The notes below the pieces were generated by a model. The model worked only from the letters and a program-made list of their open reading frames with translations, was not told where the DNA came from and did no database searches. From Norana najaformis (lineage: Eukaryota > Annelida > Clitellata > Crassiclitellata > Hormogastridae), in assembly GCA_964023275.1 (NCBI GenBank), contig OZ029927.1:6651062-6715061 (forward strand): DNA of 64,000 nucleotides. Direction: 5' to 3'. The translations under genes were made by a program, and so were the position numbers. Shown piece by piece: positions 14,351-46,418 of this stretch. Each line of letters starts with the position of its first letter. The first letter of the stretch is position 1.

Positions 14351-16380
14351 TGAATAAGTAAATGACTAGCCCTTGCCCGTATGCAAGGTTCTTGTGCAAC
14401 TGTCCGTTGTCTATGCGGAAATACCAGGTCTGAATATAGGTTCTGTGTACACAACGTGCATACGTCCCGTTCGAAATCGTATGCCTCCTCCAAATACTGG
14501 ACCGACATAACGGAAACTCTGACTGAAGTTAGCGGTAAATTTGTTTGCAACGTCAAAGTTATTGCGGCAGCCGATAAAATGAATTGTCGAGTTAAGACTT
14601 TTCTCAAAATTTTATATGCCAGGCTTTCCAAAATTCGTCTAGTCTTTTATAGAGAAAATGAGATCAACAGTGTCATCATGCTTACTTTTATTGAGGAAAT
14701 GAGATCAAGAGTAATAATTTGTAACTTCTAATGCGCCTATGTCTAATGCACAACGCATTAACCGATGTTGCATCAAATTTAAGCCGCATTCAGGTCAATA
14801 TCGAGAAGATCAGTCCACCGAGACAGCGAGGCGGCCTACGGCGGATAAGCCATTTGTCAGTGTCATCATGCTTACTTTTGTTGGGGAAATGGCATCAATG
14901 GTGTCATCATGCTTAGTCTGCTTTTTATATCCGTTTACACGATGATTTAATCGCATGCAAGAAACCCAGATGAAGAGCGTCCAACACTTAACTCTCCATT
15001 AAGCCTGAAACACGAATCAGCTTTAAGGCGATCAAGCTCATCATTCCAGAAGAGCTTCCACTAACCGGACTTAATTCTAAAGACAAGTGGAGTTTGACAG
15101 CGATACGAACGAAGGGCACGAACAACAGGACCGTAATAGCTAATAATAAGCTTGCGATGCTGCGATTTTACGCCTACGATTCCTCGCTCATCCGATGGAC
15201 ACATGGCATGCTAACAAGTGCCTTACTGACGCATTTACTTATTTACTTACTTACTTCTCATCGTTACACACCGCTAGGCACCCACATCACTGTCGAGGCT
15301 TATTAAGCTCCAGCTTCCCTCTTGTGGTACCCTGATAAGCCCGCCTTATCCCATCGTCAGGACCAGGACGGGGTGCGTTACCTGGGCAGTCGATGCTACT
15401 GTGGAGCCCAACTGCCTCAGCCAACCCCTCTAACTCGAAACTGCCCACTAGTGGTCGGTGGCCACTGAGGTCAGCACTTGAGTCAACAATAGAAACATCA
15501 CGAACAACAGGCGCATTTAGAACTAGTTACACAAATGATTTATAAAAGAAGCTCTATATTAGGCTGCGATTGAAATAGATGACTTTATCAACCGAACTGA
15601 ACAAGTCTTGGCAGTCAAACAAGTTATAACTGTCGAAAACATAACTGCAAACATTAAAGCCAACATGACTATCATTACATGCCAAATCCATGTCTCCAGC
15701 ATTGATAACATCATCATTCATCACCATGATTCACATAACTTTCAATATAACCAAAGTGTCGACAAAAATCATCAGCATATGCAAATTTAGGCTTAAAAAA
15801 AGCGAAATAAACAGTTACCAGCTGAATATTGCGAACCTTATCTATTTGAAAGACAATCCAAGAACGCTACAGCTACATCCGGACCTTTCCACTAATGGAT
15901 TTCCACCACGGGGCGGGGGAGGGGACGTCGCCAGAGAGAGTGCACCTACAAAAATGCCCGAGCTAAGTTTGTTGGTCATGGCAGATACGACATACGCAAG
16001 AAACTCTGGGAAAATGTCAATAAGAAGATGCAGGTTCTTCGGAGATAGCAAGTGTTCTTGTATAGTAATAGTGTACGTGTTAGGTTAATTACTAATGTCC
16101 GCCAGAAGGCTGCAACTAATGTTGATACCTCTAATATTAACATGACTGTCTTTGCAAGAGCTTTGTTGGCACTTTTGTTTGCGCGGAATTCCAGTCCCTT
16201 ACGGTCTGTTGAACTTGTAGTGGAAAAAGTCCCAAAGTTCTTCCCAGGTGCAGACTCGGAATTCGGCAGATGTAAACAGTCGTTTGGTCGACGAGCAACA
16301 CCCAGTGACCCGTGAAACATTATTCCGCTAGTCCTGCAAATCCTGCTTCGTTGTGGTCGGCTCCAAACTGCCAACTAAGC
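14351..16380. other. Unassigned sequence
   Basis: Several open frames of 60-130 codons overlap on both strands with no domain I recognise. A local duplication occurs at 14670-14700 and 14860-14915 (GTGTCATCATGCTTA with ATTG/GTTGGGGAAATG). Confidence 0.4.
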
Positions 16381-16384
16381 AAAT

Positions 16385-16740
16385 TCAAGTCCCGTTAGTC
16401 GGTCGCTTATAAAGTTCTACCACTGGAAGCGGGGCATGCTGGTAATTCGTTCGTCGGTCATTTGAGGTCACCGGACGCGAGGCCAACCGCTGGGAGGGAC
16501 TCTGCGCTTTCACCACAGGCACCAAGAAGACCTCTCGGCGGCCGAAGAGATTCGTCGGTCGTAGTGGAACACGACTCGGCAACTACAGGGGTCACGGTAG
16601 ATACAGGGTCATCGGCTCTCTGTTCGTCCAGCTTTCTAAACAGTGCCGCCACAAGGTCACGGAGCTCAGAGACCCGAGAACCGCTAGCTTCATCGGCCCC
16701 TGAGGACGGGTCAGGAGCCACAAGCTGAGGTAACTTCACT
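16385..16740 (-). other. GC-rich patch with unrecognised open frame
   Basis: The minus frame 16739-16458 (93 codons) is Ser/Ala/Glu-rich with one helix-like segment (SELRDLVAALFRKLDEQ). The plus strand is also open for 88 codons, as expected of GC-rich DNA. A gag-like remnant or a chance frame are both possible. No family assigned. Confidence 0.2.
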
Positions 16741-16909
16741 TTATATATGTCTAGTATCGTGTAGAGTGAGAGAATGTCTTCTAAACTTGAGCGCAGCCGG
16801 AGCTCACTCGACAGAGTTAGGCACGTATGACGTCTTCACAGTGCCAAGATATTTGTTTCGCAACTTGAAAAACAAGATTAAGATAGCGGCGCCATAGAAA
16901 TCATTACAT

Positions 16910-17045
16910 TAGAGTAGGTTAGTTTAGTTTAGGTTAGATTAGAATCCTGATCTAATCTAAACTAATCTAATCTAGTATAATCTAATATAGTCTCTTATAA
17001 GATACCAATCCAATCTTATCCAGTCTAATCCAATCTAATTTTATC
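16910..17045. repeat. TTAGAT-type tail repeats in inverted orientation
   Basis: TTAGTTTAGGTTAGATTAG is followed after about 8 bp by TCTAATCTAAACTAATCTAA, so the two can pair. These look like two LINE family A tails end to end. Confidence 0.6.
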
Positions 17046-17079
17046 TGAAAATTGTCCTTCTTCTCAGCGTTTATGCTCG

Positions 17080-17225
17080 GTCCTTAAAAGGCGCTATATA
17101 TAAATGCCCAGAGACATGCAGAAATATTACACTGGCATCAATCCTAGGTGTTCCAACAAGTGAAGCAACCATCGATTGATGCCTTGAGCATAATGATAAC
17201 GGCGCTATAGAAGTCATTAGAATAG
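17080..17225 (+). mobile_element. LINE family A 3' tail
   Basis: GAAGCAACCATCGATTGATGC, GATAACGGCGCTATAGAAG and TCATTAGAATAG form the family A 3' end. A separate GGCGCTATATATAAATG tail motif lies at 17089-17106. Confidence 0.7.
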
Positions 17226-17229
17226 TTTT

Positions 17230-19730
17230 GATGAAGCTGCCGTTTAAACGCAGTTTTGTTCGTCTGCAAGTTAGCAATAAACCGAAATGTCTAACAATAA
17301 AGTTCAGGATTTAACTTGATTTTACAAAATAACTCGAACTACAGTTTTAACTGAAGCTTCTGTCGACATCATTAAAACTCAACGAATCATCGTCAATTAA
17401 ATGTTCAGAAAGATATCATCAGTTGGCACAACAAATTAGATACATTGCAAGTTTGGCTGAGTAGGCATTTTTTCAACCTGAAAGATACTCATAAGGGTAA
17501 GATTAGGCAAACAGATCGATATCGCGTTCAACAATTGTTCCCAAAGACAATGCCCTTGGGAGGGGGTTAAAGGGTATTTCATATAAAGCGTCAACAGGAT
17601 AACAGCAGCTCAACCCTTGAACAACTATGTCTTGAGAGTGACAGCTCACTGTCCGTTTCACACGACCCATTGCGGGGATACTAGGTTCCGAACTCAGAAC
17701 ACAGAGTTGAAATTCACAGAAAGTCTTGCACTGTGCCACGCTGAACTGGCTGCTGTCGGATAAAACGATCGTTATATAATATACTGGAACCAAGTGTTAA
17801 CACAGATAATTGCTCGACTTCATATACAACAGGGTGTCAGTCAGATGTGCATCTTCGCACGACACGAAAGGCTCTAAGCGCCTGATACAATCACGCAACT
17901 GAACACGGAGAAAAGACTCGGTACAGCTTGATCTGAATGATTTGAAATACCTCGTACTTCAAACCATTAATCAATATTGGACAGGTGTGTTTGTCTTACG
18001 AAGGCCCGTCTCAGGATCCAGGTCAGTTCAGGATTTGATATGAAACAACGGGTTACATTGTAACATTGTAACAGGTAACATTGTAACAGCCGGTAATTAT
18101 TCTTTCTATTAAATCCGATGCAGAAATTGCACAATGCTTTACCATAACAGACCAGACGACGCTAACTCAATAAAACATAATTACACTGAAATTACGATCA
18201 AAGACATTAACGCACATTTGGTACGAATATACCACATGTATATTTTATATTTAATTCATATTCTGCATTTAATTACTACCAATGTCTATTAAGAAGCACC
18301 AATCCATTGCGCAAAGCAGTTGTGCGTTTTGGACTTACTCAAGTCAAGGTCCTTTCATACGAACTGCTTCATGGGAAACACGAACCTCCTTATACTGCAA
18401 GTCACTCGATGAGCCCTAAACCAGTTCATCAACGCTCACACTTTGTATCTAACCATGTAGTAGGCGCTGATAGGTTCTATAAGGCGCTACATAAGTGTCC
18501 AGATGAATATGCTTTCTTTTATAATTTAATAGATACATTAAGCTTTCTGATAAGCCGTTCTGCACTGGATTTACAAAGACTTGCCATGTAGTATAGACAG
18601 GCACCGTTATTACGGTAAGCCTTCTTTCACTTTCTAGTCCTCTTCGCAAGTTACACAAAATAAGAGGAAGTGAAGCAAATGTTGTTGGCCACAAGCATCA
18701 GTCAATTCTCTCAAAGCTGAATTACGGAGGTCACATGATGATCTATTGACGAAAATTTAGCATTTGATGCCAATCGCAATGAAATGTCCAACAACCGGAT
18801 TATATGGCTTGCCAATTATGGATTAGATTAGATTCACCTTATCTGACATCAGGAGTTCTATAGCGCCGATAACACAAAACACAATGCACCGAACTGCTCA
18901 CCACGGTAAATTTCATTAGCTGAATTGAAGTGCGGAATGCTTAAGATGAAAGGTCAAACATCGCCAGTGTTGGGCAAAATCTAAGAATTTGCTCGCACGA
19001 TTTAGCATGTTTATGTTTTTGGGATGGATGAAATCAAGGCCAATGCGAAGGACATCGACCTTGGCCTCACTGTCCTTCAACGCCAAGAACATGTCTCTGA
19101 GTCCTGTAAAAGCGCCAAAAGACCCTCCTTATATTGGTTCTGTTACAATCATGCATGACATAATTATGCGCACAAAATTGTAAATATTTACACAATTTAC
19201 CTTTGCCACATTGTACACATATTTACATTTCGATTACGAAATTGACCAAATTATGTACAGAAAACCTGCTTATTCAGTTGAATCATTTTTTTGGCATTTT
19301 GCCAGCCAACTGGACCTCTAGTCCTCGTACATCATCACCGAGCTATTATTATGCATCATCTCATCATCGCTGAGTATGATGCGCCACCTCATTCCTCCAT
19401 CCTTTGTTTCCAGGCAGACGTTACCGTTTCACCGTCACTCTACGCTAATAACAGCGCTATATAAAAGTCCAGATAAATCATGATCATTCATTTTCATGAC
19501 CCTAATCACAATCGTACCCCTCGACAACATCATCATAGTTAGTGATAAATTATTGATCTGAATTGGCTATAGGAGTCATTTGACTGACCTGGTAAATCAG
19601 TGGCAGATGAAAAATCTAGAGCATCAAGTAGTCTTGTAAATCGGATTAGAAAGTGCAAAGGTCACTCTACTGATCACTACACCGAAATAAATTTAACTAC
19701 CTATGCACCCAAGCAGTTTTAGCGCCGCTG
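17230..19730. other. 3' flank, unassigned
   Basis: No gene. Scattered short tails of the GGCGCTACATAAGTG type (18484-18500), a reversed family A tail at 18825-18875, and a triple ACATTGTAAC repeat at 18055-18090. Confidence 0.45.
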
Positions 19731-20400
19731 TTTAATAACAAACATCCATTGATCTCGCTAAGCAAATCTGGCTAAAGGTTCCTACACATCTGAATTATAT
19801 GCACATTCTGCTTGTCTCTAGATGAGTGTTTAGCCACCCACTGTCACTATCTCACATACTTATCTAACCAGATTCGAATAAACTTCCAACGGTTACCTCT
19901 GAGAGAAGCGAATGGATTCAAATGTGGAGTGTTACTCCAACCAGCCTCGTCATTGGGTAACACACATCACCTCAAACCCTTCCCACCTCTCATGAACTGC
20001 GTTTTTCAATCACCTGTCTTTTGAGGAAATGTTCTTTCTAGTTTTCCCAACAGTTCGGACCAAAGGAAAAGCTGACAGTTCGGCAGGGTGTCATTTGTGT
20101 TGGCGGCAGCAGAGGAAAGACTCCGATGGGAATTGTAAGACGAAGAGGAAGAGGAAGCTAAGCTGTGAGATGGTCTGATCCATTGGAAGGGGGAAGGGGA
20201 AGACCTACGGAAAGGAGCGAAAAGTATGGGGTATGATTATCCCTATAACTGGAGATAGTCTGAACGAGTGGAGGTAAGTTGCCCCAACTTCCCTACAAAT
20301 GGCACCCTGCTGCTCAGCAAACGATCACTATCTAGACATCCTTCGCTCAGTTAGGTTAGAAGCCGAGGGGGGTGCCGCCTTCTTCTGAGGAGGCCTTCGA
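19731..20400 (-). other. Probable Meis 3' UTR / immediate 3' flank
   Basis: Sequence downstream of the Meis stop. It is not repeat-like between about 20040 and 20400. The first polyadenylation-like hexamer I see on the minus strand is ATTAAA at 19736-19731; no AATAAA was seen between it and the stop. The UTR end is therefore a guess. An 18-19 kb stretch further downstream shows no gene. Confidence 0.3.
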
Positions 20401-20672
20401 CTATCGTGCGTGTATGTCCTGGATGAGTCCCATAGCGCCGTCCATTGGGCCGTGCAACGGTGGACTCTGCGCTGCGTGAAGTCCGTACATTCCCGGATGG
20501 TGACCCATGTGACCTCCGTGGGCCATCATCATGGCGTGGTGCGGATGTCCTGGTATGAGCATTGCACCCTGCGAGTGAAGAGCTGGCGCAGGTCGCAGGT
20601 GACTCATCGAAGCGTAGGAACCGGAATTCGGAGACGTTCCGTACATGTCTGAACCGGCTAAGTCTTGCATAC
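20401..20672 (-). CDS. Meis: Meis terminal exon, long C-terminus ending QDIHAR
   Basis: 272 nt including the TAG stop at 20403-20401. Acceptor GTTCGTCACAG at 20673. It encodes G then 89 residues: GMQDLAGSDMY, a Ser/Gly/Pro-rich part, ALHSQGAMLIPGHPHH, a His/Met/Gly-rich stretch (MMMAHGGHMGHHPGM), and GPMDGAMGLIQDIHAR at the end. It aligns by eye with the vertebrate Meis terminal exon (IPGHPHH, MMHGG, HPGM, VMDIHAQ). In vertebrate Meis this region carries transcriptional activation activity; that role here is inference. A LINE 3' end lies within about 40 nt upstream of the acceptor, and the frame stays open backwards through it to about 20766, so an intron-retaining read-through would not meet a stop at once. 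Confidence 0.93.
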
Positions 20673-20711
20673 CTGTGACGAACGGACAAAAATAGGAAGA
20701 GGTGACCAACT

Positions 20712-21130
20712 GTAATTGTAATTGTAATTTGAGATTCATAAAGCGCCTCTTAGAGGATAAACTCAACAGAGGTACTCCCGACCCGAAAGAGTAAAATCAC
20801 TGTTAGTACAGTCTTCAGGCGCCTGGAGGGGGAGAGAAAGGAGCTCAAGTCGCAATTCTCGAGGGAGACGATTCCAGCAAGTGGGACCAACGTAGGCGAA
20901 GCTTCTGGACTGGGCAGTAGCGGTACGCATGTGAGGGACAAACAGGAGATCCTGAGTGGCCCAGCGAAGGGTGCTACGGCCCGGCAACGAGGAGACCAAA
21001 GTGCAGAAATCAATGAGGTAAAGGGGAGCAGAGCCAAGAACACAATTGCGCATGAGGGAGAGGATCTTAAAGTGGACACGCTGCTGGACGGGGAGTCAGT
21101 GAAGAATGTCACGAATATAAGACGAGGTGT
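20712..21130 (-). mobile_element. LINE family B 3' end next to Meis last exon
   Basis: The minus frame over 21053-20763 reads CVLGSAPLYLIDFCTLVSSL, a VPHMRTATAQSRSFAYVGPT block, CWNRLPRELRLELLSLPL and more. This is the standard CR1/L2 reverse transcriptase C-terminus, followed by GAGGCGCTTTATGAATCTC and an ATTACA tail ending about 40 nt from the Meis acceptor. It is nearly identical over its core to the copy at 47.4-47.67 kb, suggesting recent insertion. Confidence 0.85.
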
Positions 21131-21295
21131 GAGAATATAAGACCAAGCAGTGCATCTCTAAGGCCGACATCTAAGTAATGACTCCATAGAAAAGCAGACT
21201 TCAATTACATTGTGATCTGTTGCATGTGACTCTGTGACGCATGCATTTTCAATCTGCCGTAAAATGCACTTGTTTTAGATCGTCATGTGTGCGTC

Positions 21296-21615
21296 GCAGT
21301 TGTAGGGTGGGCTTACTTAAAGGCGCTACAATAAGTGCCTTGCATGCATGCATGGACATGCGCCACGGTGGACTCCGTGTAACGACCCTCATCCAGTTGT
21401 TGTCTCGCATCTCAGATGAAGATTTGCTGAATTTAGGCGCGTAATGAGTGCAGTAAATAAATAGATGGGAAGATGGACGCGCCGAAATTCAGCAAATCTG
21501 TATCTGAGATGCGAGACAACTGGACGAGGGTCTTTACACGGAGTCCACCGTGGCGCATGTCCATGCATGCATGCAAGGCACTTAATGTAGCGTCTTTTAA
21601 GTAAGCCCACCCTAC
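21296..21615. repeat. Inverted duplication of a SINE-related unit
   Basis: Left arm about 21300-21440 and right arm about 21480-21615 are reverse complements over about 135-140 bp, with few mismatches and a spacer of about 40 bp. Each arm carries GGGTGGGCTTACTTAAA, a GCATGCATGCATGGACATG block, and the SINE 3' body (GACTCCGTGTAA...GTCTCGCATCTCAGAT). The transcript would fold into a long hairpin. Confidence 0.85.
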
Positions 21616-21620
21616 AAATG

Positions 21621-22022
21621 CGATGGATGGATGGGTGGGTGGGTGGATGGGTGGATGGACAGATGAATGGACTGAGGAATGGATGGATGGACGGAAGGAC
21701 TGATGGACCGGTAAATGGATGGGTGGGTGGATGAATGCATGGGAAGGTGGATGTATGGCAGGATGGAATGACCGGCCCCCGGACATGGATGGTTGGTTGG
21801 ATGGATGAATGGATGGACGGATAGATGGGTGAGTGGCTGGGTAGATGAGTTGATGGGTGGATGGATAGATGGGTTGACGGGTGGACGGAAACATAGATGG
21901 ATGGATGGATGGATGAGTGGTTGGATAGATGGGTTGATGCGTGGATAGATGGGTGGGTGTGTAGAAGGACAGGCGGGTGGATGGGTGGGTGGGTGAGTGG
22001 ATGGATGGATGGAAGGATGAAC
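21621..22022. repeat. GGAT/GGGT tetranucleotide array
   Basis: About 400 bp of imperfect (GGAT)n and (GGGT)n. Long minus-strand frames here (His/Pro/Ser/Ile repeats) are repeat artefacts. Confidence 0.95.
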
Positions 22023-22628
22023 GGAGGGACAGAGCCTTCTGCATATAGAGGAAAGAGGCTCAGTTTTGCACAAGAGTTATGATCATAGCGGTGGACTACT
22101 GTGGTTTGAGCCAAGTGCAGTAAAAGGTGGATGGAGGTCAGAATGGACGGTTATTATAAGGTAGCAGTCAGTCAGCGGGGAGTCGGGGCAGCCAGCGCCA
22201 GTTCAAAAAATGACAATATATTCCGTCTTGCACGAGATTCCGCAATTTTCCGCATTGCCAGAGGCGCTTCTAGCGACCGAGCGATGAACAACGATCTCCG
22301 GGAATGAACGAGGCACTTGGCCCCTCTGATAAATTGCAGTTAAATTCAGCATGGACGCATTTTTGTCCACCGGATATTACTTCAGGCAAATAAACCAAAT
22401 CTAGCTCTTTGGAGGACTGGAAATGAGGGGTGGTTGGGGAACGAGGAAGGGGGGCTGGAGAGGGAGGATATGGGAATGGGAAGGAAGCAGGCGATTGTCG
22501 AGAACGAGAATGGAGGAATGGTGTGGCGGAATAAACCCAAAGACGAGCCTTCGGCGCCGATTGACGTCCTGGAAGGCTCTCTAAATTGTACACATTAATC
22601 AACAAGTCTTTCTCCCTCCAGCTTTTCC

Positions 22629-22778
22629 CATTCCTCCCTCTTCCGTCGCTCTTTCCTCCTTCCCTTCCTCTCGCCCTCCTGCCTTCCTCATTCCTCACTC
22701 TTCCGTCGCTCTTTCCTCCTTCCCTTCCTCTCGCACTCCTGCCTTCCTCATTCCTCCCTCTTCTCTTGCTCTTTCGTG
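22629..22778. repeat. 60-bp pyrimidine-rich tandem repeat, 2.5 copies
   Basis: TTCCTCCCTCTTCCGTCGCT and the following 40 bp repeat with exact 60-bp spacing from 22631 and 22691, with a diverged third copy. CT-rich sequence continues to about 22940. Confidence 0.9.
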
Positions 22779-22979
22779 CCTTGTTCTTCCCTCCAACATC
22801 TTTCTCTTTTTTTCGCTCATTCCTCCCTTTTCTTCAGTTTCTCTCCCTCTCTCTCCCTCTCTCCCCTTTCCCTCTCCCTCTCCCTCTCTTTCTATTTTTT
22901 TTCTCTCTCTATCTATTTATATTTATATATCTCTCTCCCGCCTCCCTTTTCCTTGCGCCTTCCTTCCGTCGTCGGCTGA

Positions 22980-24020
22980 ATAACGATGCTTCCAGCAGGG
23001 ACTTCTTCTCATTCAGAAAATGTCGGTCACGTCAACGGGACGACTCTCACTTACTAACTGACGATTGCTAACAGCAGCATTTCGAAACCACTCAGCGCCT
23101 TCGCTCATCCTAGTAACAAATTTCTTCCCAAAGTCACGGTTGAACGTAAGGAATGCAGCAAAAGCGCGTTAGATAACTGTGACCATCATCTATATAATCT
23201 TATGGTGTTGCCGATTTTTATGAATAGTGAAGGAAATGAGGCCGTTGAAGACGGGGTTCCAAAAAACTACGTGAAGTAGGCTAGTAATCTTGCAGAGGCT
23301 TGAGTGCAGTGAAGATTTATAACGTCACGAGATGGAAAACTGACGGTCACGCTTTGGTGATTTCGGGTAATTAGAAGGTACTGCTGTAAGAAGATAGCTT
23401 GACAGTTTGGACAGCGTGGCTGTTGGACAATTTGACGGAGTGAAGAGTAAAGAAAAGTATGCTAGTGGAGATTTAAAGATAAAATGAGACGAAACTTCAG
23501 TGTATAAAACTATTTCTGCTAGAAACCTGTGTTTTAATGACGTTGTTTCAGTAATTGTGTGGAACATTCAGTGAGTTTGAAAGCAGAATTTGCAACCTGA
23601 CAGTTTTTGTTGGGCAAAAATAACCGTCTTAAACAAGTGCCTTCATTCGTGAGTAACTTTGAGAATACTCCACTAGTCTGAACAATTTCGTACGACGTGT
23701 AAGATGATTAACAATAATACAGTTGAACCTCCTTCCATAAGAGCTTTGGGGTTTCTAGTCTATTAAAAATGCTATTCCACATCTGTACATCGGGCTTCGA
23801 GCCCAATCCGATTGAGATGAAGGTTGCGAATTAATGAGCTGGTCACCCACTATGACTTTGGTGGCTGATAGTAAATATTTAATAAATTTGTCGCCCTCTC
23901 CCTCCATCCTTCGCTCACGCACAAGCCAACCCTCTCGCACATCTATACTCTCGCTCGCTCGCACACTGCGATTAAATTGAATAAGCAAGAAACATGAAAA
24001 CCGTATTGAGAGCAGCTTAT
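22980..24020. other. Meis last-intron sequence, unassigned
   Basis: No repeat family or second gene recognised. Confidence 0.4.
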
Positions 24021-24022
24021 AC

Positions 24023-24055
24023 CTGATTCGTCCGGATCGAAAAACACGCGGTACC
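24023..24055 (-). CDS. Meis: Candidate 33-nt cassette microexon of Meis
   Basis: 33 nt, phase 1 at both ends, adding G-YRVFFDPDES in frame between RAPG and GMQDLAG. The acceptor is excellent: a long T-rich tract on the minus strand (complement of 24057-24080) ending TTTTACAG. The donor is CAG/GTATAAG. Skipping it joins RAPG directly to MQDLAG, which resembles the vertebrate join RAPG-LQSMPG, so the microexon is probably optional. I know of no counterpart in vertebrate Meis. The alternative is a chance pair of splice signals; the matching phase, open frame and strong tract argue against that but do not exclude it. Confidence 0.55.
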
Positions 24056-24059
24056 CTGT

Positions 24060-25284
24060 AAAAGAAAACAAAAAAAAAATATCGAATCATGTTAACGCTT
24101 ACAAGGGCATAAGACCTCAAGAAAGTCGTTCGGTCGTCAACCACTTAAGACAGAAACCTCACGAAAACATGTTGAAGGCATTGCTTCAACGTGTCGCTCA
24201 AGAAACATTTTCAGCTGATTTTAAGACGCACCTTTTAGATCGTTTACATATTCGTGTTGAAGAGCCTTTGATAGTGAGGTTCCTAAAAGACCACATGCAA
24301 GCCTTCGGATACATTCACAGAATACACATAAAGATCAGCGACATTATTTTCACCGACTGAACAAAACAGTACTTACAGCGATCATAATTAATCGCAAGTA
24401 GTCATCGTAAACTGGACAATTTCTAAAGCGCAACTTAAAAGTTAAGCTTATTCAAGAGCACCGCATCGGGTCAGAGTGTTGTCCAGAGGTACTCTACGAA
24501 GAACAGCATCCGATTGCCAGGAGCTCAGGAGCGGAAGGAGACAGAGGAGCTGTGTTTAGATTGAGAGAAATGGGATTGCGGCCGATTTTATGCATCAGGG
24601 TCATGTTTCTTTCGAGGTTCAAAAGTTCAGAAAGTTCAGTAAATAAAGTGTCTTAGACTTAGAAAAATATTTCGAGCTGTTCATCTCATATCAAGGATTC
24701 GAACTATCACGTTGTAGATTTGCGTGACTACACAAGGACCAAGTAAGCGAGCTGTTATGGTTAATTTTAAGAGTTATTCTAGACAATAGGTGCTTTAGGA
24801 ACTGTTGTATCGGGCGCTACATAACTAAGTTTTAGTTTCATCATTAGCTCCGGGAAACCTTTACCCAAACGGAACTCTTTACAGCAATTATAGTTGACCC
24901 GGTCTGGTTATTGTAGTTTGGGAAGAGCTGTACAGAAATTGTTTCAGTTAATTATTACAGGCGAATGCAATCTCAGCCACTGTCGTGACTGAGAGCTAAC
25001 TGAAGATGAGGGTTTCATGGAATGGGTTAGTCTGGTGTGACCGCATTAGGTCAGTTATCCGTAGCCGTTTGGGAGATACAGCGTGGCTCAGGGCGACAGA
25101 GATTGATTATGAAACATTGATGGAGTTTGCAATGATAGAAGAGATGATAGAAGAAATATAGTCAGAGAAAGAATGCCAGACATTTGTTTGCGCTCGAATC
25201 AGTCATTAGTCGTCCTAAAGTCAGACAGAAGGACAGTCATCTGGATTCTGTTGGGCGGAGGATGGACTTAGATTAAACCCCGAG
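24060..25284. other. Meis intron sequence, unassigned
   Basis: A 63-codon plus frame at 24169-24360 is not recognised. No gene supported. Confidence 0.4.
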
Positions 25285-25378
25285 GTAGTAGTTTGAGTAG
25301 GTTAGGCTTTGCGTTGGTCGTCGGCCCTACTTCTTGGAACTGTTTGCCGAGTGACCTGCGGCGACTTGAACTTCTCTG

Positions 25379-25441
<63 letters not shown>

Positions 25442-25461
25442 TCCCTCTCTCTCTCTCTTTC

Positions 25462-25492
<31 letters not shown>

Positions 25493-25600
25493 TTTGAAGA
25501 CCAATGGTTCTGGATTATCGGGCAGGCAGCGCCTCTGACGAGACTATCTTGAAGAGGGGCTTTGTAAATTGTTGATTACGATTACGATTACGAATATATA
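25285..25600 (+). mobile_element. LINE family B 3' end with internal CT expansion
   Basis: Frame reads SRLGFALVVGPTSWNCLPSD then L-rich sequence where a (CT)n tract (25383-25438) has expanded inside the LINE. The tail is GAGGGGCTTTGTAAATTG and ATTACGATTACG. Diverged relative of the 20.7 and 47.4 kb copies. Confidence 0.75.
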
Positions 25601-25839
25601 GTTTCGGGGTTCTTTAGAAGTCGTAACGTTCTCGTCCAGTGTAATGTAGCTTATGCGAAATCTAACATGTACTCGAAAAAGAGTCGAAAGACATTCGTAT
25701 TCGAAGAAAGATAACAAAGCGATCTACAACCGAAGAATCCCAGAGAACCAGAAACAAGTGGCGTTTAATAGACCTAGTCGAATGTAAACGTTAGTCACAC
25801 TTTTAAATTCTAATGGACAGCCTTGTCACAGTACATTTG

Positions 25840-26060
25840 AGAGCTTCTTAGAAGGCGGTATACAAATGCTCAGGCACAACGTAATTAGGTCGTTATCAAG
25901 ACCCTAATATAGCGCCTTTTAGGTAGGCCGACTCACAAAGGCGATAGGACACGCCAAGTCAGCTTCAAGCGTAATTGCATCAGCACCATGAACGCCACCA
26001 AATTCAATAAATTCTGTTTGTCAGTTGTAACTAAACTCTTCTGAAAACAGCGCTATAAGA
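25840..26060. repeat. Cluster of short GGCGCTATA-type repeat tails
   Basis: Reversed tail CCTAATATAGCGCCTTTTAGG near 25905-25925, with AAGGCGGTATACAAATGCTC at 25852 and AGCGCTATAAGAAAG at 26049. The remaining sequence is not assigned. Confidence 0.45.
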
Positions 26061-26439
26061 AAGTTCGGTCGCTGCACCTAATAACATGACGTAAGTTGCT
26101 GGATATAGGGGTTGGCTGAACTGATCCGGCGAAATCCACTCACGAAATCCAATAAAATAAACGATCACTTCAATTTGGATTAAAGACTTTCTTGCGTCGG
26201 ACTCGGGCAACTGATCACAAAATCCGCCGCTTCCTGCTGCACGGAAAATAGCAAAAAATAAATCACGTTCTCCGTTCGCATCCACAAAGAACCACAAAAG
26301 AACAAGGCGGCGGCGGCGGTGGCGGTGGTGGCGGATACTTTTTGCCCGGCGGATACTTTCTTCGCAGCGACCAGTTTTCACCTGACAACCTCGGTGATGG
26401 ATGAAGTTGACTCGACGTGTCACCGCGATCGCAACCGGG

Positions 26440-26610
26440 CAAGTTAATCAGAGGGAAAACTGTGGAAGGGGAAATTTCAATAGGGGCATCGCGGCGTTGA
26501 CAGGCATTATTATGTTGAAGATAAAAGTGTGGGACCCCGAGTGACCCCCATCAGGAATGATCGATGACTGGCGTCCGGCCATCGGGGGCGAAAGCAGCGG
26601 CGCGGGCGGC
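26440..26610. promoter_or_regulatory. Candidate regulatory patch in Meis intron
   Basis: Non-repetitive, GC-rich patch with GCGTTGACAGGCATTATTAT (TGACAG at 26498-26503, the core Meis/TALE site) and TGATCGATGA at 26548. Conservation cannot be judged without another genome. Low confidence. Confidence 0.2.
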
Positions 26611-26857
26611 GAATAACTTCATTGTTTACAGCGACCGGTTCACGATTCAACGACGCCACGATTCAATCGGACCATGTGCTAGGAGGATATATTACACGCC
26701 GCCCAGAAGACCCACCGACCGACCTCCTGTCGACACACCCTCAGGCCTCCAGATATGCGCTACAAAAATTGGCCCGTTACATTACGTTGCATGGAAAGCG
26801 TGCAGCCAATACACCTTTTAGAACCCAATAGAAAATTCCCATAGACTTCAGAAGATG

Positions 26858-27381
26858 TGCTGCCTACCCTGGCTTCCTTTGCTACCCCGGCTTCCCTTGC
26901 GACCCTGGCTTCCCTTGCTACCCAGGCTTCCCTTGCTACCTTGGCTTCACTTGCTACCCAGGCTTCTCTTGCTACCCAGACTTCCCTTGCTACCCAGGCT
27001 TCCCTTGCTACCTTGGCTTCACTTGCTACCCAGGCTTCCCTTGCTACCCCGGCTTCCCTTGCGACCCTGGCTTCCCTTGCTACCCAGGCTTCCCTTGCTA
27101 CCTTGGCTTCCCTTGCTACCCAGGCTTCCCTTGCTACCCAGGCTTCCCTTGCTACCTTGGCTTCCCTTGCTACCTTGGCTTCCCTTGCTACCCAGGCTTC
27201 CCTTGCTACCTTGGCTTCACTTGCTACCCAGGCTTCCCTTGCTACCCAGGCTTCCCTTGCTACCCAGGCTTCCCTTGCTACCCAGGCTTCCCTTGCTACC
27301 CAGCTTCCCTTGCTACCCAGGCTTCCCTTGCTACCCAGGCTTCCCTTGCTACCCAGGCTTCCCTTGCTACCCAGGCTTCCC
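26858..27381. repeat. 18-bp minisatellite, about 29 copies
   Basis: The unit is CTTCCCTTGCTACCCAGG with few variants (CTTGG, CCCCGG, GCGACC). Eighteen is a multiple of three, so frames run through as hexapeptide repeats (LPLLPR on plus, REAWVA on minus). Lies about 140 bp from the 27524 exon, on the side downstream of its donor. Not a gene. Confidence 0.95.
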
Positions 27382-27523
27382 GGATTCTGAACTGGCATAG
27401 AAATCACGATCCGGCTGTTTTAACCATGATGTGCGCTTTTACCGAAGTAGCTGACAACATGTAGGGCAGCAAGAGTAGGTCGTCTGTCTTAGATCTGAGA
27501 GGAAATGATGCGAATCTGCTTAC

Positions 27524-27595
27524 CGGGCGCTCTCATCATTTGCTGACTGTCCATATAGAGACTGGCAATGTCTGGGCTATAGACGCTTGGAGGAC
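27524..27595 (-). CDS. Meis: Meis exon: YSPD...MDSQQMMRAPG segment
   Basis: 72 nt, phase 1 at both ends. Acceptor GATGTTTTAG at 27596, donor CCCG/GTAAGCAG at 27523. Joined to the upstream G it reads G-PPSVYSPDIASLYMDSQQMM-RAPG. This corresponds to the vertebrate Meis segment with YNPD/YSPE, MDGQQHM and RAPG just after the homeodomain. In vertebrates the splice choice after RAPG decides between a short C-terminus and the long one ending DIHAQ. The exon is symmetrical, so its omission would also keep frame. Confidence 0.9.
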
Positions 27596-27599
27596 CTAA

Positions 27600-29300
27600 A
27601 ACATCAAATGTATTCACAAGCATCAGCAACCAGTCCCTGCATCTTCCTTTCATTCGTTCATGCATTCATTCGCTCATTCGTTCGTTCATTCCGAGTACTT
27701 ATATAGCAACTTCGGTTATCCTTCCTTATAAGGTCTGTGCGTTCAAGAGGTAAGGTCATAAGGTCAGGTAATACCTCCTTCTCCAATAGTTCTCAAGAGG
27801 TGTGGTCTGAAAGGTATCGTTAACCTCGAATAACAGCATAATGCAATTAATATAAACATAAAGGTACATTTGGGAAAACCTGTCTTTTCTTAGGTCTGCT
27901 ATTAACGACGGATTCGACCGCTGCTGATGCGTTGGTTCTAACGCTAAAGGTCTTTCGTTTGAGGTACAGATGCAAAAGCAGCACAAACAGGGCAACGTTT
28001 CCTCGTGGATTATTAAGTGTAACGATGACTTGTCCATTGTCCGGGTCACACGAAGCGCGGGAATTTGAATATAGCTGGCGGACCGGTGAAGGGCCAACAC
28101 TACTTCAGGATTTGCCTCTGCAAGCGACCGCCCTACTGCGTAAGTATTTCGAAAATTATATACAGCTGCGTTCGAGTATCTCTTGAAGTCGTTAAGTTCT
28201 CAACTGCGTGTATACTGTTGACTTCATCTGCATTTAGTAGACGAAGAGTGGATCGGCTTATAACGTCTAGAGCCGAGCGACAGCAAGAACAACACGCAGT
28301 TAGAGATACTGTGATCTCAAGAGCTACTAAGAGCTTGTCAGCGTAACTCTGGATCATCGTACATGGGATTAATTCTAGTGGAGGGACGTGCGGCGCTACT
28401 GGTCTCTCGATCTCACAGCGGAACAACTATCACTCGATTAGTCTATGAGGCAGAACAACACTTGTCACGGACCTTTCGAACAAGATGATTCAATATTTCC
28501 GTCGCTAAGTTCTCAGTTTGCTGTCTTCAATAGTACGCTCACTTATCGCACTTATTATTATTAAGAAGCGCTCTCAGCTTGGCATGTATCTTAGGAAGTA
28601 CACTCGATCATGTATCTTAGGAAGTACACTCGATCACCACACATTAAAATTTAAAAATATTCTTAGTTTGTCATCTTACGAATTATAATCAATCACCATA
28701 CGTTATTCTCTTACAAAGTACAGTCAATTATCTCCGACTAATATGAAGAGTTGATGATGTTACGAACATTCTTCAATACGCAACAAACTACAGCTATCAA
28801 TGGACATATGTCTAAGCAGAATTATAAATTGTAGCAGAAAAACACAGAATCTGCGTCAGCGAGACCAACTTATTTAACTGAAATGATGTGACAGAACATT
28901 AAACTGCGATGTAGAAATTCATAGCAATCGAAGAACAGTTGCATCTAGACGAGGATATTTAATTGGCTGAGTGGATATGGTCGCCAAGAGACGCAAATTC
29001 AATTAAGCTCAACTTTCTAACAGATTCGCTGCTGGCTGACCATCTGCGATCAGCCGGTCAACCTGAGAGTCCAGTGAAATCAGGTCTCACGCAGGAGCTA
29101 ACGAAGGAGCCTTTTAAAATTAATGTCTCCTCCTGCAGCAACAGCTGATACTGCAGAGTGGCTACGACTGTATCAGACATAAACTGTCCTGTTCATAGCA
29201 CATACCGATTGTTGCCTACTGCCAGAGAATACTGTCTTATTACTACAAAAGGCTACATTAAATGTCTAGCAACGGCTGTGCATTTAACCAGATACTTAAA
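27600..29300. other. Meis intron sequence, unassigned
   Basis: Open frames near 27756-28426 overlap on both strands without recognisable domains. A 26-bp direct duplication (ATGTATCTTAGGAAGTACAC) occurs at 28584 and 28610. Confidence 0.4.
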
Positions 29301-29309
29301 TGTACTTGC

Positions 29310-29368
29310 CGGCTCTGTTGGACTGATCGATCATTGGTTGAACTATTCGTCGTCGTGCGTTTATAAAC
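29310..29368 (-). CDS. Meis: Meis exon: WFINARRR recognition helix, GC donor
   Basis: 59 nt, starting with the last base of the Trp codon and ending one base into a Gly codon. Acceptor TTTGAAG at 29369-29370. Encodes FINARRRIVQPMIDQSNRA: the DNA-contacting helix with N51 and R53, then the QPMIDQSNR tail typical of Meis. The donor reads GCC G/GCAAGTAC, so it is a GC rather than GT splice donor. The nearby GT at 29305-29304 would give phase 2 and break the frame to all downstream exons, which start in phase 1. The exon is separated from its 5' neighbour by about 15.95 kb, so a very long intron splits the W48 codon. Confidence 0.93.
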
Positions 29369-29439
29369 CTTCAAACAAACAAACAACAAACAAGCGTTGG
29401 AATCGCAAGAAACTGCGAATGAAGACAAAAGACAGTTCG

Positions 29440-29750
29440 CTGCTAAGAAAACAACTGCGCTGAAGGAAGTCTTTAAAAGAAAACTCTCATGGTTTGTTCA
29501 GGTGGAAAGAATGTCATTTCACTCAGCTACGACTCTGAAAGCACTGCTTGCAAGACATATAAAGAAAAGAGAAACAACCGAAGACAACTTGGGCAACGCT
29601 AATCGACAACACCAATGAAGACAGAACAGGACTTGGATTAATGACAAGAAAGACACCGGAGCTGAAAGAAACCTACAGAATGAAGTTCATTCATTCGAAC
29701 CCATCACCGTCAAACGGTTGGCGTCAGGAACTGACGATAACAATGAAAAG
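29440..29750 (+). mobile_element. Non-LTR retrotransposon C-terminal fragment
   Basis: Plus frames read KRKLSWFVQVERMSFHSA, then TWINDKKD and NGWRQEL after breaks. This is the W.GHV.RM...W.D.I..D...R..WR pattern found at the C-terminus of many non-LTR elements (RTE/CR1-like). Short and frame-broken. Confidence 0.5.
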
Positions 29751-45318: not shown

Positions 45319-45395
45319 CAGTTATTAACTTGAGACAGCGTTAATCCCGTCTGTTCAGCTAACTCCTTCTTCTGCTCTTCTGATGGATACGGATG
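45319..45395 (-). CDS. Meis: Meis exon: TALE loop and start of recognition helix
   Basis: 77 nt, starting in phase 0 and ending two bases into the Trp codon. Acceptor TTTTAG at 45396, donor TG/GTAAGT at 45318. Encodes HPYPSEEQKKELAEQTGLTL then SQVNN plus the first two bases of W48. PYP is the three-residue loop insertion that defines TALE homeodomains and helps contact Hox/PBC partners. Substitutions against vertebrate Meis (ELAEQ for QLAQD, LS for IL) are conservative. The length and both intron positions agree with what I remember of vertebrate Meis genes. No frame damage is visible. Confidence 0.95.
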
Positions 45396-46266: not shown

Positions 46267-46418
46267 TGTTAAATGTTGGAAGAGCCAGGCGCGCATGATG
46301 TTCGTTGCCAGCTTCGGAAAGATTCCACGCTTCTTCTGGCGCTTGGCTGAACCATTTGCCTCCGAGTCCTCGTCCGCTGTCCCGTCTCCAGAACCAACGC
46401 TGTTGTCCAGACAATCAC
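46267..46418 (-). CDS. Meis: Meis exon: acidic linker and homeodomain helices 1-2
   Basis: 152 nt, entering in phase 1 and ending in phase 0. Acceptor ...GATGCACAG at 46419-46420, donor ACA/GTAGGT at 46266. It encodes 50 complete codons. First comes [12 protein letters not shown] and an acidic stretch (DEDSE), matching the GDGLDNSV...DDDD linker of vertebrate Meis. Then a basic patch (KRQKKRG) and the first part of the TALE homeodomain ([20 protein letters not shown]). The boundary after LFQHLT is, to my knowledge, the conserved intron position of Meis genes. A GGCGCTATATAAAT repeat-tail motif sits about 20 nt upstream of the acceptor at 46441-46455, inside the region that normally holds the pyrimidine tract. 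The preceding exon would have to end in phase 1. Confidence 0.94.

Follow-up and report, generated by a model that had tools for sequence, protein, structure and literature searches.

A candidate 33-nt cassette exon for the C-terminal tail of Meis in the annelid Norana najaformis

Does the intron before the last coding exon of the Meis TALE-homeobox gene of Norana najaformis hold a small exon that can be included or skipped with the reading frame kept? The question is raised by 33 nt on the minus strand (24023..24055) of the window—the whole stretch of DNA analysed here, 64,000 nucleotides of contig OZ029927.1. We consider it probable that these 33 nt are a real cassette exon, small and in frame, in the part of the gene that encodes the tail; its inclusion would add the peptide YRVFFDPDES and one glycine. 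Alternative splicing of the Meis C-terminus is already known, as is a small exon in fly hth, and the candidate is a further example. If it is spliced, it would provide a Hox cofactor with two tails that are eleven residues apart, and with it a simple test of how a Meis activation region is adjusted. It would also help to tell whether isoform switching in animals makes repeated use of the same Meis join.

Frame, phase and position within the Meis gene

The host gene carries both the Meis_PKNOX N-terminal domain and the TALE homeodomain that define a Meis gene: its joined translations match the Pfam families Meis_PKNOX_N (PF16493) at 1.1e-54, Homeobox_KN (PF05920) at 7.8e-23, and Homeodomain at 6e-9. 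Exons were located by a tblastn search in which human MEIS1 served as the query; the N-terminal exons lie upstream of the window, within 90 kb. Within the window, all on the minus strand, tblastn places two homeodomain exons at 46267..46418 and 45319..45395 (the latter HPYPSEEQ...VNNW) and the FINARRRIVQPMIDQSNRA exon at 29310..29368, which encodes the end of the homeodomain and has a GC donor. Two further exons were read from the sequence (a slash marks the splice junction). The upstream RAPG exon (27524..27595; 72 nt) finishes AGA GCG CCC G/gtaagc in phase 1, its donor CCCG/gtaagc scoring 4.8 bits—here and below, bits derive from generic splice-site weight matrices, which had no training on Norana najaformis. 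The last coding exon (20401..20672; MQDLAG...IQDIHAR and stop) opens cacag/GT ATG CAA GAC, a phase that fits the RAPG exon.

On the same strand, the 33 nt from 24055 to 24023 are free of stops, with AG directly before and GT directly after; the sequence reads ...attcgatattttttttttgttttcttttacag on the acceptor side, GGTACCGCGTGTTTTTCGATCCGGACGAATCAG for the exon, and gtataagctg... on the donor side. The host intron, 6,851 nt long, directly precedes the last Meis exon. With an acceptor, a donor and symmetrical phase (1-1), the candidate has the layout of a cassette exon, and the frame is kept either way: the product is RAP-G-YRVFFDPDES-G-MQDLAG with the exon and RAPG-MQDLAG without it, neither containing a stop. 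The gain is eleven residues, namely YRVFFDPDES and, through the split codons, one glycine. Re-reading the minus strand thus bears out the coordinates, phase and splice signals given in the first-pass annotation, along with its claim that skipping retains the frame with a canonical-looking RAPG-MQDLAG join, both products being open.

The surrounding introns have features of their own. The intron that follows the FINARRRIVQPMIDQSNRA exon (29309-27596, minus strand) has the GC donor GCCG/gcaagt and an AG acceptor; a GT near that donor, checked by hand, would break the frame if used. Between the candidate and the RAPG exon, the host intron contains a minisatellite (26864-27381) with a unit of 18 bp and about 29 copies. 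At 20711-21000 (minus strand) there is a dispersed high-copy repeat, which we take to be LINE-like; it matched no Pfam family above cut-off. A first look gave 2,942 candidate copies; of the 40 that were scored, 39 are other places, 90-92% identical. The repeat closes with AATTACAATTACAATTACA at 38 nt before the last exon and so may have replaced the branch-point region there.

Splice signals and the part played by chance

The acceptor region (24056..24095, minus strand) consists of a branch-like TTAAC, a T-rich tract and a closing acag, and scores 14.3 bits, as against 0.3 to 7.6 bits for the gene's other five acceptors within the window. The donor, GTATAAG after CAG (24016..24022, minus strand), reaches 1.0 bit, and its position +5 is not a G. 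Of the 15 GT sites that follow the acceptor within 250 nt, this donor ranks first; second comes a GT of 0.5 bits that lies 205 nt further on and is out of phase. A longer exon with a better donor was also sought and rejected, there being none within 250 nt of the acceptor. The HD1 exon of the same gene has, by frame, an equally weak donor (0.8 bits). By eye, the Meis exon that closes with NEDIRVFSNQ (minus strand, L009 at about 8665) also seems to have a very weak donor, CAG/GTTCCT, so that donors of this kind may be fairly common in the Meis gene.

A strong acceptor joined to a weak donor suggests that inclusion is donor-limited and factor-dependent: the very strong U-rich acceptor would call the exon, and the weak donor would make its inclusion depend on splicing factors. 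One UGCAUG, an RBFOX-type motif, stands 244 nt upstream of the candidate, a match that chance could give.

The same pair of signals can be read in two other ways. The exon might be constitutive, present in nearly all transcripts, and so no cassette at all; its acceptor is the strongest of the gene's six in the window and both joins are in frame. The weak donor speaks against a constitutive exon, as does the skip join, which resembles the vertebrate join, and we regard this possibility as very improbable. Alternatively, the donor at 24023 might go unspliced, giving a longer alternative last exon with an in-frame stop from exon nucleotide 111 (23945) and the C-terminus YRVFFDPDESGISCSQYGFHVSCLFNLIAVCERARV; such an exon would act like vertebrate exon 12, the inclusion of which ends the protein early. 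A strong acceptor with a weak donor, a frame open up to the stop at 23945, and an ATTAAA downstream at 23883-23878 (chance level not assessed) are all in keeping with this possibility; however, the donor of the 33-nt exon is the best of the 15 nearby GT sites and its phase fits the last exon, and an alternative last exon also seems very improbable to us.

The chief alternative to the cassette exon is a chance pseudo-exon—a poly-T run that by accident closes with ACAG and has a poor GT 33 nt further along, spliced rarely or never. In its favour, the donor is weak and a single T run supplies most of the acceptor's strength. We scored the window and 20 stretches of 10 kb (ten adjoining the window or its upstream side, ten on other contigs) on both strands, 518 kb of readable strand in all. 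With the generic matrices, the candidate's acceptor has the top score among the 33,467 AG sites of this background, and 1,403 of these sites (4.2%) are followed within 51 nt by a donor that scores 1.04 bits or more and leaves phase 1 open. By arithmetic done after the fact, the two together put the chance expectation at about 0.06% for the host intron (6,851/518,000 x 0.042) and at about 0.5% when the entire sense strand of the window is counted.

Summed scores lead to the same result. In 528,000 strand-bases, one candidate combines an acceptor of at least 0 bits with a summed score of at least 15.3 bits, namely 24055-24023; the runner-up reaches 13.5 bits. Dinucleotide shuffling of the intron (a stretch of 6,852 nt, being the 6,851-nt intron and one exon base), done 300 times, never attained 15.3 bits, the best shuffle giving 13.9. 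A chance origin of the 33-nt candidate is unlikely, and we think a pseudo-exon an unlikely, if by no means negligible, explanation. The second-best small-exon candidate, on the plus strand at about 1928 of L016, is 39 nt long and Lys/Glu-rich, with an acceptor of 10.3 and a donor of 3.2 bits; it may be an exon of another gene.

Codon usage lends the candidate exon no support, and this is a further point in favour of a pseudo-exon. The ten codons have a log-odds of -2.2 against the intron background, a score that 32% of 39,610 stop-free intron stretches equal or exceed, and one of the two alternative frames of the same 33 nt scores higher (-0.67). None of 229 ten-codon windows from known exons falls below the candidate; however, these exons also supplied the 318 codons of the model's training set, and such a small training set drawn from the exons compared gives the test little power and a bias against inserts of different composition. 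In favour of a real exon, the candidate holds five CpG dinucleotides, a count that 1.9% of all 33-nt stretches in the window reach.

Several other identities were considered and set aside. In the searched genome (608 Mb, 17 contigs) the surrounding 301 nt match their own site only, which excludes a repeat-derived exon within a search that skips simple repeats. A structured RNA element was ruled out by the absence of any Rfam match in the window at the gathering threshold and by an ordinary local fold (z = 0.10). A recursive splice site was rejected on two counts: the AG is followed by GGTACC and not by GT, and the intron is merely 6.9 kb. No relatives were found in viral contigs, and a contamination check against prokaryote genomes gave 20 pattern matches, none of which was confirmed.

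Likely effect on the tail and relation to known Meis isoforms

In the skipped form, the 114-residue tail after the homeodomain is devoid of phenylalanine, tryptophan and glutamate. The insert, with two phenylalanines beside D-P-D-E, would bring aromatic and acidic side chains into the tail and be its sole source of phenylalanine and glutamate. Inclusion of the cassette exon would place YRVFFDPDES and one glycine in this tail, which we assume to be disordered, and skipping would leave the RAPG-MQDLAG join. In zebrafish, Meis2 isoforms have C-termini that transactivate when fused to GAL4 (PMC5953537), and the C-terminus of mouse and human Meis1a differs from that of Meis1b by splicing of exon 12 (PMC3157405). 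Together with the composition of the insert, this activity and this tail splicing point to altered transactivation or cofactor binding of the C-terminal activation region as the likeliest effect; DNA and Pbx binding would be untouched.

The vertebrate isoform join, RAPG-LQSMPG, is probably the same join as that of the candidate's intron, and the candidate's position and phase appear to agree with the vertebrate sequence. The outcome differs: exon 12 brings an early end, whereas the candidate is 33 nt long, in frame and stop-free. A search of 15000-29500 with regular expressions for WHY-/GQW-type peptides, typical of vertebrate exon 12, gave two matches, both outside the host intron. The likeness between the two is that each would be an alternative exon altering the C-terminus after the homeodomain, as exon 12 of Meis1 does (PMC3157405). 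By analogy, the effect of the cassette on the tail may correspond to the vertebrate Meis1a/Meis1b switch. A bolder idea, which we offer tentatively and hold to be rather doubtful, is that of a Meis tail switch, lineage-specific or ancient, in which an aromatic-acidic mini-activation motif sits at the vertebrate isoform join, whether independently or by descent, and the join is a hot spot of isoform control across animals.

A second comparison is with Drosophila homothorax, whose exon 8 is described in PMC7392893 as an alternatively spliced micro-exon of 3 bp or 48 bp. It is likewise a small alternative in-frame exon in the same gene family; however, it falls in the interval from the MH domain to the homeodomain and uses alternative donors (PMC7392893), whereas the candidate lies after the homeodomain. 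The peptide YRVFFDPDES was not found in a literature search, and among the matches listed on Meis/hth splicing or Meis microexons, titles and abstract openings hold no description of the candidate. A dedicated study of Meis/hth gene structures was reportedly made by Irimia in 2011.

Comparison with eMIC-type neural microexons

The first-pass annotation called the candidate a microexon that looks like a regulated cassette. The first term is a loose label, as microexons are usually given as 3-30 nt (PMC7392893) or 3-27 nt (PMC7935315) and the candidate has 33 nt. The second term draws on just two things, the skip join and the weak donor, and regulation is a putative property.

Fly eMIC exons have a weak acceptor, a weak donor and a strong upstream donor (PMC8797185); a UGC near the 3' splice site and a UCUC-rich tract mark neural microexons of the eMIC type. 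The candidate is like them in being small and in frame, in pairing a weak donor (1.0 bit) with a strong upstream donor (4.8 bits), and in the 40-nt stretch free of AG upstream of its acceptor. In contrast to the very weak acceptors of the fly exons, its own acceptor is very strong (14.3 bits); its nearest upstream UGC is at -54, the upstream 300 nt contain a single TCTC/CTCT (at -209), and the branch motif CUAAY does not occur within 300 nt on either side. Because it is longer than microexons usually are and lacks their 3' splice-site signature—weak acceptor, near UGC, UCUC-rich tract—we do not class the candidate as an eMIC-type neural microexon.

The genome was also searched for SRRM_C (Pfam PF15230), which we take to be the eMIC domain that drives neural microexons. 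One of seven matches is above the cut-off of 27, at 29.2 bits (E 8.1e-4) in one exon; the control search matched in 2 of 14 genomes, never above cut-off. A second piece, covering positions 54-67 of the domain, lies 1.7 kb on along the same strand and scores 19.3-19.4 bits (E 0.0016), below the cut-off. The region reads RKRPVPYYRPSPSS and ARKRPVPYYRPSPSS, and the eMIC-type domain apparently extends over two exons (L030, 1456-1629; L031, 1462-1704) that include RKRPVPYYRPSPSSDW.
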